This document shows positions 57,861 through 61,054 of a stretch of 64,000 nt of DNA, piece by piece. Under the pieces are notes generated by a model that saw only the letters and a list, made by a program, of their open reading frames with translations, was not told the origin of the DNA and ran no database searches. This stretch comes from Vibrio tubiashii ATCC 19109 (GTDB lineage: Bacteria > Pseudomonadota > Gammaproteobacteria > Enterobacterales > Vibrionaceae): contig NZ_CP009354.1 of NCBI RefSeq assembly GCF_000772105.1, positions 2,914,001-2,978,000 on the forward strand, given 5' to 3'. Each line of letters begins with the position of its first letter. Positions within the stretch are counted from its first letter, which is position 1. A program made the translations under genes and the position numbers.

Positions 57861-58973
57861 ATGAACTACCAAGAGCTCGCAGACAAGATCAAAATTTGGG
57901 GCCAAGAACTTGGCTTCCAAAAAGTTGGCATCTGCGATGTAGATCTCTCTGAGCATGAAGCTGAACTACAAAAATGGCTTGATGCAGGCTATCACGGGGA
58001 AATGGACTGGATGGCTCGTCACGGAATGATGAGAGCGCGTCCTGCTGAACTACTACCAGGTACTGTCCGTGTCATTAGCGTACGTATGAACTACCTGCCT
58101 CCTGAAGCGCAATTTGCCGCCAACCTGTCGGATCCGACTCAAGCCTATATAAGTCGCTACTCTCTTGGGCGTGATTATCACAAGTTAATCCGCAACCAGT
58201 TAAAAAAGCTCGGGCAAAAAATAGAACAAGAAGTTGGCAGCTTTGGCCACCGACCTTTTGTCGATTCCGCGCCGATACTTGAAAGGCCTTTGGCGCAGAA
58301 AGCCGGATTGGGCTGGACTGGAAAACATTCACTTATTCTAGATAAAGAGTGTGGCTCATGGTTTTTCCTTGGTGAGTTGCTGATAGACCTTCCTCTTCCA
58401 GTCGACGAACCCAGCGTTGATGAATGTGGCAAATGCAAAGCTTGTATTACCTCATGCCCGACGCAAGCCATCGTAGATAATGGTATTGTCGACGCAAGGC
58501 GCTGTATCTCCTACTTAACCATTGAATTCGACGGCGTCATCCCAGAAGAGTTTCGCAAAGCCATGGGCAACAGAATCTATGGCTGTGACGACTGCCAACT
58601 TGTTTGTCCTTGGAACCGCTTCTCAGATTTAACCGCTCAGCCAGACTTTCACCGTAGAGAGGCATTGACCAATGCGAATCTCGTTGAGCTATTTAAATGG
58701 GATGAAGCGACTTTCTTAAAAAATATGGAAGGTTCAGCTATTCGCCGTATCGGACATTTACAATGGCTAAGAAACCTGTCGGTCGCCATGGGAAATGCTC
58801 CATACTCCATCAACATCATTGAAGCGCTGGAAAATCGCCTCGGCCTGAGTGAGACTTTAGATGTACATATTCAATGGGCTCTAGAACAACAACAAGCTCA
58901 AACCCCAACACAATCAACTAAGCTAAATAGGTTGATTAGAATTGTCGAAAAAGGCTTACCACGCGATGCATAA
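57861..58973 (+). CDS. queG: Epoxyqueuosine reductase QueG
   Basis: Last step of queuosine synthesis in tRNA. The 370-residue iron-sulfur, cobalamin-dependent enzyme has RYSLGRDYHKLIR, GWTGKHSLIL and two [4Fe-4S] motifs (CGKCKACITSCPTQAI and CDDCQLVCPWN). Ribosome binding site CCGGAGCAA precedes the ATG. It is convergent with the tRNA array; the DnaA boxes are in the gap. Confidence 0.96.
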   Translation: MNYQELADKIKIWGQELGFQKVGICDVDLSEHEAELQKWLDAGYHGEMDWMARHGMMRARPAELLPGTVRVISVRMNYLPPEAQFAANLSDPTQAYISRYSLGRDYHKLIRNQLKKLGQKIEQEVGSFGHRPFVDSAPILERPLAQKAGLGWTGKHSLILDKECGSWFFLGELLIDLPLPVDEPSVDECGKCKACITSCPTQAIVDNGIVDARRCISYLTIEFDGVIPEEFRKAMGNRIYGCDDCQLVCPWNRFSDLTAQPDFHRREALTNANLVELFKWDEATFLKNMEGSAIRRIGHLQWLRNLSVAMGNAPYSINIIEALENRLGLSETLDVHIQWALEQQQAQTPTQSTKLNRLIRIVEKGLPRDA

Positions 58974-59024
58974 TGCTTGCCGAACTTAGCCACTCAGAGT
59001 TTGACCTAGCTCCAAAAACCAAAA

Positions 59025-59033
59025 TGTGGAAAA
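59025..59033 (-). promoter_or_regulatory. DnaA box, variant TTTTCCACA
   Basis: TGTGGAAAA on the plus strand, matching TTWTNCACA when read on the minus strand. Confidence 0.5.
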
Positions 59034-59280
59034 AAGAAAGAACGATTACTCATTTTCTTACAGATGGAGAAGTTAATCACAGTGGTAAGAAATGACTAGG
59101 ATCAAAAAACAGTGACTTAATGATCGTAAACACCTACTAAGCCAAGCTAGGCAAAACATAAAAATAACTTAAAATTCAACAAGTTAAATTAAATTTAAAG
59201 TTAGGTAGGAAAGTTTCAAAAACAAAAAGATCGTTTTAGTCAAGCGTTATACATGAATAAAAATCAGGTTACCCACCAAG

Positions 59281-59289
59281 TTATCCACA
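59281..59289 (+). promoter_or_regulatory. DnaA box, consensus TTATCCACA
   Basis: Perfect R1/R4-type consensus box. Ten bases separate it from an inverted perfect copy. Confidence 0.75.
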
Positions 59290-59299
59290 ATTAGACATC

Positions 59300-59308
59300 T
59301 GTGGATAA
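59300..59308 (-). promoter_or_regulatory. DnaA box, consensus TTATCCACA, inverted
   Basis: TGTGGATAA on the plus strand is the exact inverse of the box at 59281-59289. Confidence 0.75.
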
Positions 59309-59408
59309 GTCTGTTGACTAACATGCCAAACCCTAGCTCACATAATGCTTGCTATTGATTCTGACTGAGCACATCTCGTGCTGAGATTTAATATTGAGAC
59401 ATAAAAAT

Positions 59409-59438
59409 GCCCACCTAAAAACTAGGAGGACTTTTTTT
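59409..59438. terminator. Possible terminator between queG and tRNA array
   Basis: CCACCTA and TAGGAGG pair with one mismatch around AAAAAC, followed by CTTTTTTT on the plus strand and preceded by AAAAATG, which gives T on the minus strand. It could end transcripts from queG or from the tRNA array. Confidence 0.5.
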
Positions 59439-59524
59439 ACTGATTTGGGGTTCATGCTTCGCAGCATTAGCTAAAGAGCGGTGACCGTAAGGTCTATTCA
59501 AATGAAAATCATTTGAAGGAGATT

Positions 59525-59616
59525 TGGAGCGACACACGAGGTTCCCTATTCATAAACAAAAAGGCGTGACCTCAACCTTGGCAAGGTTGCGCTCAATCAA
59601 ACTGAGCGGGTGTTGC
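59525..59616 (-). pseudogene. tRNA-Gly(GCC) pseudogene
   Basis: Retains the CCA end, the acceptor strand and the anticodon arm of the intact tRNA-Gly copies. The T arm is broken by replacement and insertion of about 15-20 bases and the D arm is altered. The acceptor has an extra mismatch. Confidence 0.85.
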
Positions 59617-59654
59617 ATCTTTATCACCGTTAAGCACGATGAAGGCTATCAAAT

Positions 59655-59730
59655 TGGAGCGACACACGAGGTTCGAACTCGTGACCTCAACCTTGGCAAG
59701 GTTGCGCTCTACCAACTGAGCTAGTGTCGC
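59655..59730 (-). tRNA. tRNA-Gly (anticodon GCC)
   Basis: 76 bases with encoded CCA. GCGACAC/GTGTCGC acceptor, anticodon loop TTGCCAA, T loop TTCGAAC. Spacer after it repeats that of the preceding unit. Confidence 0.95.
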
Positions 59731-59768
59731 ATCTTTGTCACCGTTAAGCACGATGAAGGCTATCAAAT

Positions 59769-59844
59769 TGGAGCGACACACGAGGTTCGAACTCGTGACC
59801 TCAACCTTGGCAAGGTTGCGCTCTACCAACTGAGCTAGTGTCGC
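59769..59844 (-). tRNA. tRNA-Gly (anticodon GCC)
   Basis: Identical in sequence to the copy at 59655-59730. Lies 3 bases from the initiator tRNA that follows in the plus direction. Confidence 0.95.
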
Positions 59845-59847
59845 ATT

Positions 59848-59924
<77 letters not shown>

Positions 59925-59966
59925 TCCGTATTGTTTCACCGTTAAGCACGATGACAGCTTTAAATT

Positions 59967-60042
59967 TGGAGCGACACACGAGGTTCGAACTCGTGACCTC
60001 AACCTTGGCAAGGTTGCGCTCTACCAACTGAGCTAGTGTCGC
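59967..60042 (-). tRNA. tRNA-Gly (anticodon GCC)
   Basis: 76 bases, same sequence as the other intact glycine copies. Confidence 0.95.
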
Positions 60043-60060
60043 ATATTCTCATAAGAGAAT

Positions 60061-60137
<77 letters not shown>

Positions 60138-60175
60138 TCCATAATCATTGTTAAGCACAATGAAAGCTTTAAATT

Positions 60176-60251
60176 TGGAGCGACACACGAGGTTCGAACT
60201 CGTGACCTCAACCTTGGCAAGGTTGCGCTCTACCAACTGAGCTAGTGTCGC
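60176..60251 (-). tRNA. tRNA-Gly (anticodon GCC)
   Basis: 76 bases, intact, same as the other copies. Confidence 0.95.
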
Positions 60252-60253
60252 TT

Positions 60254-60323
60254 TGGTTGCGAGGCCGGATATAAATCGATGACCTTCGCGAGGTTTTATG
60301 AATAGCTGAGCCCGACGAGCTAG
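60254..60323 (-). pseudogene. tRNA-fMet pseudogene
   Basis: Begins like the initiator copies (CCA end, part of the T arm), keeps the GCCCGACGAGCTA part, but the anticodon arm is disrupted by an insertion and the 5' acceptor half is lost. Right end approximate. Confidence 0.8.
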
Positions 60324-60345
60324 CGAATCACAACACCTAAAAATT

Positions 60346-60422
<77 letters not shown>

Positions 60423-60463
60423 TCCGTATTCACCATTTAAGGCATGATGAAAGCCTTCAAATT

Positions 60464-60539
60464 TGGAGCGACACACGAGGTTCGAACTCGTGACCTCAAC
60501 CTTGGCAAGGTTGCGCTCTACCAACTGAGCTAGTGTCGC
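60464..60539 (-). tRNA. tRNA-Gly (anticodon GCC)
   Basis: 76 bases, intact copy. Confidence 0.95.
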
Positions 60540-60542
60540 ATT

Positions 60543-60619
<77 letters not shown>

Positions 60620-60660
60620 TCCGTATTCACCATTTAAGGCATGATGAAAGCCTTTAAATT

Positions 60661-60736
60661 TGGAGCGACACACGAGGTTCGAACTCGTGACCTCAACCTT
60701 GGCAAGGTTGCGCTCTACCAACTGAGCTAGTGTCGC
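60661..60736 (-). tRNA. tRNA-Gly (anticodon GCC), first of the array
   Basis: 76 bases, intact. It is nearest the promoter at 60769-60796 and so the first gene transcribed. Confidence 0.95.
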
Positions 60737-60768
60737 ATCAACAACGTTTCCGTCGTTCAGGGCTGCGA

Positions 60769-60796
60769 ATTATAAGAGCATTTTTTTGTGATGCAA
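60769..60796 (-). promoter_or_regulatory. Promoter of the tRNA array
   Basis: On the minus strand TTGCAT and a perfect TATAAT are 16 bases apart, followed by a GC-rich CGCAGCCC discriminator, typical of growth-rate/stringent-controlled stable RNA promoters. An A tract lies upstream. Confidence 0.8.
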
Positions 60797-61054
60797 GTCC
60801 TTCATGCAAAAAAAATCCATTTTTTTCCTGTTTGGATGAAAAGCGCACATCAATCATCAAAACAGCTTGAAATTTAAACGAAATGCATTTCGTTAAATAA
60901 CATAAAAGTAACCTCACCTATGCTCAAATTGGGATATTGACCTGCATTTTGGTGACTTAATGTCGCTGATGAATGCAAATTTTAATATAACTATTGGCTA
61001 TAAAAGCCTCGTTCCAATGGTTACAAGATTTCTCCTAGTTAAGGTTCAGTGTCC
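60797..61054. other. AT-rich spacer between the tRNA promoter and the lipoprotein gene
   Basis: Contains long A/T runs upstream of the tRNA promoter, suitable as an UP-element, and the promoter region of the lipoprotein gene. No gene or repeat is seen. Confidence 0.5.

Follow-up and report, generated by a model that had tools for sequence, protein, structure and literature searches.

We describe here a cluster of predicted boxes for DnaA, the initiator of chromosome replication, in Vibrio tubiashii ATCC 19109 that is likely, by position and by structure, the Vibrionaceae counterpart of datA, the DnaA-inactivating locus of Escherichia coli. The cluster lies within a stretch of 64,000 nucleotides of contig NZ_CP009354.1 (positions 2,914,001 to 2,978,000; hereafter the window, with its own numbering), in the gap 58974-59654 that is bounded by queG (stop codon ending at 58973) and the first minus-strand tRNA-Gly gene. 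Box alpha with a weak partner, a predicted site for integration host factor (IHF) and box epsilon are found in the order and orientation of E. coli datA, and this predicted arrangement is kept family-wide. Judged from these sequence comparisons, Vibrio probably has a DnaA-inactivating brake too, in changed form. A Vibrio datA had been proposed for this gap from the letters of the window (the original prediction), and the proposal gains support from evidence it had not drawn on, namely the shared flank, the orientation of the boxes and the IHF-type site.

The datA-dependent hydrolysis of DnaA-ATP (DDAH) has been worked out in E. coli. With a counterpart throughout the family Vibrionaceae, the set of switches on the primary chromosome would be complete for bacteria that have two chromosomes. 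Natural variation of the locus in spacing, IHF site and GATC sites would further allow one to test directly which datA parts are important. We found no description of a Vibrio datA in the open-access literature, which is a weak test because datA is easily confused with the word "data" and only the top of some long result lists was covered. Passages of a 2018 review report DnaA-reactivating sequence (DARS)-like sequences in V. cholerae and liken an RctB titration region to datA, and these passages name no datA for DnaA (PMC6090056). V. cholerae has been included in a comparison of DARS2 (PMC8682772), and datA has been cited for E. coli (PMC3937223). Analogous DnaA-box clusters are mentioned for Bacillus and Streptomyces, and datA-like control has been expected to be widespread (PMC5742627).

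Boxes, IHF-type site and GATC sites in the queG-tRNA gap

Loci of Vibrionaceae were gathered with the QueG of the window (80 of 284 kept), giving 81 rows with the window itself. Counts over 80 rows omit one locus with a gap of 95 nt (L043), and the 67-row alignment omits L043, L009 and 12 Photobacterium rows. A 667-base DNA search of the genus hit mainly the tRNA end of its query and did not enter the box counts. The rows are related species and their counts are not independent events; the evidence is therefore the contrast with neighbouring columns.

A pattern search of the gap recovered the boxes that had been claimed at 59281, 59300, 59025 and 59073 (Table 1). Beta and alpha face each other across 10 bases in the window, and TTATNCACA at up to one mismatch occurs in 58974-59654 only at alpha, beta, epsilon and delta. 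When 58974-59524 was shuffled 5000 times with dinucleotides preserved, TTWTNCACA was absent from 4530 shuffles, present once in 459 and twice in 11, and the observed number of three was never reached. Two copies of TTATCCACA within 551 bp occur at only six places of the genome (random placement: mean 0.20, maximum 3, 5000 trials): at oriC between mnmG and mioC, in the mutH-rppH gap, upstream of uvrB, in the queG-tRNA gap, in a focA/fetB-like gap and at one place on contig C2. The boxes in the queG-tRNA gap are not due to chance.

Alpha, beta and epsilon are the best-kept of the 552 9-mers in the alignment (67, 66 and 64 of 67 rows; median 4). Alpha with the flank STNTGT is found in 80/80 rows, and the exact 16-mer TGTGGATAASTCTGTT stands at alpha in 64 of the 80 Vibrionaceae rows and occurs in 8/8 E. 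coli-type loci. A box faces alpha at a register of 18-19 nt in all 80 rows, the gap being 10, or 9 in 12 of them; this box, beta, reads TTATCCACA in 69/80 rows and the weaker TTACCCACA in the other 11, namely in L069 and in 10 of the 12 Photobacterium rows. Epsilon is exactly TTTTCCACA in 77/80 rows and TTGTCCACA in L038, L041 and L066; L041 is V. metoecus, which we take to be the nearest named row to V. cholerae, a species whose sequence is not among the rows. Gamma reads TTACCCACC in 27/80 rows and fits TTANNCACN in 45/67 aligned rows, certain variants being barely box-like, and the 9-mer of the alpha partner ends in AACA (68/80) or CACA (12/80). All three boxes are also present in eight separately fetched genomes of the genus Vibrio, two of which duplicate named rows. 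Thus, the box conservation among close relatives that the original prediction had named as its own test holds in 80 of the 80 rows with a usable gap.

An IHF site had not been found by eye. However, ATTCAACAAGTTA is present at 59174-59186, and on both strands of 58974-59330 no other sequence matches WATCAANNNNTTR with at most one mismatch. CA-N5-TT lies 118-128 nt from alpha in 69/80 rows, while the next best control windows (30-260 nt) reach 31 and 11, and this IHF-type site is position-locked in the relatives. The 11 rows without CA-N5-TT, nine of them Aliivibrio, have WATCA(A/T)NNNNATA in nine cases, a TTTCA variant in L060 and ACAATAAGATA in L062. At the column of 59174, WATCAANNNNTTR is exact in 11/67 aligned rows and CAANNNNTTR is found in 42/67, with 19/67 at the next best column (59110); anywhere in the interval, CAANNNNTTR occurs in 57 rows, whereas shuffling gives 24.6 on average and 32 at most. 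A second IHF core match is present in some relatives.

The interval further holds three GATC sites, whose counts (Table 1) compare with a 95th percentile of 64 rows for the 4-mers of the gap. At least three GATC between epsilon and alpha are found in 67/68 non-Photobacterium rows, the number expected from composition being 0.72 (averaged over 80 rows). Photobacterium has one GATC, 175-177 nt from alpha at the place of GATC 2, in 11/12 rows, and the other sites are mostly missing; L068 has none.

Table 1. Features of the queG-tRNA gap and its neighbours (window positions)
Feature	Position	Strand	Remarks
DnaA box epsilon TTTTCCACA	59025..59033	-	predicted; corresponds in position and direction to box 3 of E. 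coli datA
Delta, weaker DnaA-box-like site TTAATCACA	59073..59081	+	fits TTAWNCACA (55/67 aligned rows); TTANNCACN in 67/67
Conserved GATC (Dam site) 1	59100..59103		67/67 aligned rows, Photobacterium excluded
Conserved GATC 2	59122..59125		22 bp from GATC 1; 65/67 aligned rows
Conserved GATC 3	59229..59232		66/67 aligned rows
Predicted IHF site ATTCAACAAGTTA	59174..59186	+	WATCAANNNNTTR with 1 mismatch; between the outer boxes; orientation as the consensus match of E. coli datA
Gamma, low-affinity box-like site TTACCCACC	59269..59277	+	predicted; 12 bp upstream of beta
DnaA box beta TTATCCACA	59281..59289	+	predicted; faces alpha
DnaA box alpha TTATCCACA	59300..59308	-	predicted; corresponds to box 2 of E. 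coli datA
Low-affinity alpha partner TAGTCAACA	59312..59320	-	12 bp upstream in box direction; putatively corresponds to box 7 of E. coli datA (TTGTAAACA)
Weak hairpin with U run, tRNA strand	59401..59440	-	lies between tRNA operon and boxes, possibly as an attenuator; z -1.17; 22/200 shuffles fold equally well
queG (epoxyqueuosine reductase)	57861..58973	+	left neighbour, heads into locus; open reading frame; TIGR00276 500 bits, cut-off 200
tRNA-Gly(GCC)/tRNA-Met array	59655..60736	-	transcription heads into locus

Comparison with E. coli datA

In E. coli, datA is located downstream of glyV-X-Y (PMC10950094). The K-12 genome has the order glyV-glyX-glyY, boxes, queG, as the original prediction had stated, and queG adjoins there the same gap as in the window. 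In the K-12 glyY-queG gap there are TTATCCACA and TTATTCACA and also TATCAATAGGTTA, which matches the IHF consensus perfectly. Minimal datA is described as a 183-bp segment that has a single IHF site besides boxes 7, 2 and 3, with the essential boxes pointing in the same direction (PMC5742627). From TTGTAAACA (position 4733 of L001, the E. coli locus) to the end of TTATTCACA (4915) there are 183 bases, and we therefore assign these two sites to boxes 7 and 3.

The Vibrio locus shares with datA the queG/tRNA-Gly gap and the tRNA transcription that heads into it. E. coli box 2 TGTGGATAACTCTGTT recurs in the window as TGTGGATAAGTCTGTT, with equal orientation relative to tRNA and queG and with a weak upstream partner and the flank, and it is accompanied by a box 3-like site in equal direction and an IHF consensus match in equal orientation. 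Alpha, epsilon and the site at 59312 all lie on the minus strand and, like boxes 2, 3 and 7, point in one direction, epsilon TTTTCCACA being one mismatch away from TTATNCACA, and one predicted IHF site is placed between the counterparts of boxes 2 and 3. Both loci are near oriC, at ~314 kb or 9.5% of contig C1 in Vibrio, if C1 is the whole primary chromosome, and at 467 kb or 10.1% in E. coli. Domain IV of DnaA in the window genome is identical to that of E. coli at 92/94 residues, and an IhfA gene above the cut-off is present. This DnaA also has R281, R285, L290 and R334, which are required for DDAH in E. coli (PMC5742627).

Several parts of the original prediction had to be adjusted. The array does contain tRNA-Gly genes, although not these alone, since four of its ten genes are tRNA-Met and six tRNA-Gly. 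The link to E. coli holds for the same-direction boxes at 59300 and 59025; the facing pair, in contrast, is not shared, and 59281 weakens in 11/80 rows. Gap and order agree with E. coli datA, whereas the spacing differs. Vibrio moreover adds the facing gamma-beta pair and delta, keeps three GATC where E. coli-type loci have one (108-109 nt from alpha, in 5/8 loci), and has an epsilon without a facing box, unlike E. coli with TCATCCACA beside TTATTCACA.

A number of observations weigh against the assignment to datA. Boxes 2 and 3 are separated by 262-282 bp in Vibrionaceae and by 161-165 in E. coli-type loci, and the interval lengths of E. coli datA are reported as optimised (PMC5742627). Helical phasing of alpha and epsilon was considered and rejected, as the spacings of 262-282 share no single phase. 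In an order-level set (93 genomes above the QueG cut-off, 80 fetched, 72 outside the genus and 8 inside; boxes counted over the first 900 nt per gap or flank, 434 only in L115), at least two same-direction boxes occur in only 7/72 queG flanks outside the genus (L096, L101, L110, L115, L117, L138, L139). In these seven the box 2-box 3 spacing is 161-165, and no tRNA was found within the fetched stretch of L110 and L138. The remaining 65 flanks have no two same-direction boxes, four of them having a single box. The IHF consensus is exact in only 4/8 E. coli-type loci (E. coli counted) and L139 has no match at one mismatch; the match of the window itself bears one mismatch, CAANNNNTTR stands at the IHF place in 49/80 rows and also at the second column, 59110, and CA-N5-TT is found too at distance 26 in 41 rows, inside the gamma-beta block and beyond the control windows. 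As a point against non-random boxes, TTATNCACA is not enriched across the 64-kb window (3 found, 2.8 expected), and neither is TTATCCACA genome-wide (46 matches; the reversed control has 44); the box signal is one of clustering and conservation, not of box abundance. Because the spacing is 262-282 instead of 161-165, we file the locus as a datA counterpart with altered geometry and not as a proven datA.

To these points belongs the flank of alpha, which is not exclusive to datA and occurs upstream of polA as well. TGTGGATAASTCTGTT was rejected as a datA-only signature, as polA adjoins 42/70 tested stretches (some overlapping); among the other 28 are the datA copies of E. coli-type loci and a few copies with no assigned place. 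In favour of the assignment, the 16-mer stands on only 2 of the 46 perfect boxes of the window genome. It is found in 106/295 genomes scanned in the order, the reversed control having none among the matches listed. Of 23 genomes of the genus Vibrio, 16 have it twice, 3 once and 4 not at all, and these 4 count against the assignment too; one of them, G041, retains the three boxes in the gap (L163). The second copy adjoins polA in 18/18 tested Vibrionaceae (17 within the genus, one from a different genus), and checked copies in several other families adjoin polA likewise. Since the flank is also at polA, the queG copy is tied to datA by its place and companions and not by the flank alone.

The element upstream of polA deserves mention in its own right (L199:2903-3053; G000:C1:3222202). 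It is conserved and combines the box 2-type flank of 16 bases, an adjacent TTATCCACC-type site and the box TTTTCCACA; compared to the queG locus, the order of the box 2-like and box 3-like sites is reversed, they are 142 bp apart in the window genome, and they lie beside the start of polA. Several GATC are found between its boxes, and the element occurs in Vibrio and partly in other families. This composition suggests control of polA by DnaA and Dam.

Possible mode of action and alternative explanations

E. coli datA is described to act by IHF bending, head-to-tail arrangement of DnaA-ATP and hydrolysis via the sensor 2 Arg334 (PMC5742627). In the Vibrio locus, an IHF bend would bring DnaA-ATP on alpha and epsilon together, head-to-tail, and this assembly would trigger ATP hydrolysis, DnaA-ATP dropping soon after the locus is copied. 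In E. coli, IHF is removed when transcription reads through from the tRNA-Gly operon, and an additional factor that sets the timing is being sought (PMC10950094). Read-through may strip IHF in Vibrio in the same way. The Vibrio interval is ~110 bp longer, and the added, opposed gamma-beta pair might serve as a second anchor. The three GATC present outside Photobacterium could make the assembly sensitive to Dam methylation or SeqA just after fork passage. It is tempting, if rather speculative, to think of a methylation-gated, two-sided datA, in which gamma-beta and alpha with its partner would make up two cooperative DnaA pairs in opposition, differing from the DARS arrangement by roughly half a helical turn, and GATC with SeqA or hemimethylation would time the assembly of IHF and DnaA. 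If true, methylation gating would provide Vibrio and Aliivibrio with the timing factor sought for E. coli datA (PMC10950094).

A pure titration site is possible, with a probability that we consider low. Boxes near the origin would then bind DnaA and reduce its free pool, with no stimulation of ATP hydrolysis. In line with this, the boxes are strong and conserved and lie 9.5% of the chromosome away from oriC, and their spacing departs from the E. coli optimum. However, titration alone needs no fixed facing register of 18-19 nt, no weak partners at 12 bp and no position-locked IHF-type site. It is also possible, and clearly less probable, that DnaA acts here as a roadblock or attenuator of tRNA-operon read-through that shields queG from convergent transcription, effects on replication being secondary. 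The tRNA genes and queG do converge on the locus, and box 2 lowers read-through in E. coli (PMC10950094), but a roadblock accounts neither for epsilon nor for the IHF-type and GATC sites at a further 70-275 bp. The 65/72 order-level flanks without the box set tell little here, because most of them have no tRNA found in the stretch.

We take the mutH-rppH gap as the place of DARS2 and the region upstream of uvrB as that of DARS1, and a facing pair with a gap of 5 as the DARS core, the latter being our choice. Such a pair is found at all four DARS places examined (two in E. coli, two in the window genome, the latter by uvrB and between mutH and rppH). E. coli rppH-mutH carries in addition a facing pair with a gap of 15. 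For the uvrB pair of Vibrio, no third box is listed. uvrB and mutH are also named in a passage on DARS (PMC6090056). The queG-tRNA locus resembles DARS1 and DARS2 in having facing boxes and a tandem site 12 bp outside, and one could imagine an element that reactivates DnaA with the beta/alpha pair as its core. Yet its facing gap is 10 (9 in 12/80 rows) instead of 5, about half a helical turn more, and its genomic place is that of datA. A DARS core was rejected on this gap, and we regard the DARS explanation as improbable, and less likely than titration or roadblock. A cryptic second origin or oriC relic, which would account for the joint presence of DnaA boxes, GATC sites and an IHF-type site, is very unlikely given that oriC with its boxes is already located between mnmG and mioC; the composite ACAGAGTTATCCACA is shared with the E. 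coli oriC site and weak neighbour that are presumably R4 and C1, the queG-tRNA locus having neither mnmG nor mioC as neighbour.

Two further places in the window genome carry facing boxes. In the focA/fetB-like gap (L082:1527-1549; G000:C1:1175826-1175848) two perfect DnaA boxes face each other with a gap of 5 bp, as at the DARS places. On contig C2 (L088:1515-1537; G000:C2:975914-975936) a gap-5 facing pair TTATCCACT/TTATCCACA, with more boxes nearby, adjoins a YbbP-like ABC permease gene.

Transcription and minor features around the locus

A pattern scan of the locus found no intrinsic terminator, and there is one weak hairpin at 59401-59440. A non-coding RNA was dismissed as well, an Rfam scan of 58600-59660 giving no match up to E = 1. 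Promoter-like sites in 58900-60900 number 4, with 2.1 expected, and are not used as evidence. A small hairpin ATGCTTCGCAGCAT at 59448-59474, between the boxes and the tRNA array, is well conserved in the aligned rows. At the end of the array, 59520-59620 resembles by eye a degenerate tRNA-Gly copy with a broken middle, for which ARAGORN makes no call, and a comparable broken tRNA-Met-like stretch is seen, again by eye, near 60256-60330. Finally, a TTTGA block directly after queG (59000-59004), for which no box accounts, is kept in 51/67 rows.
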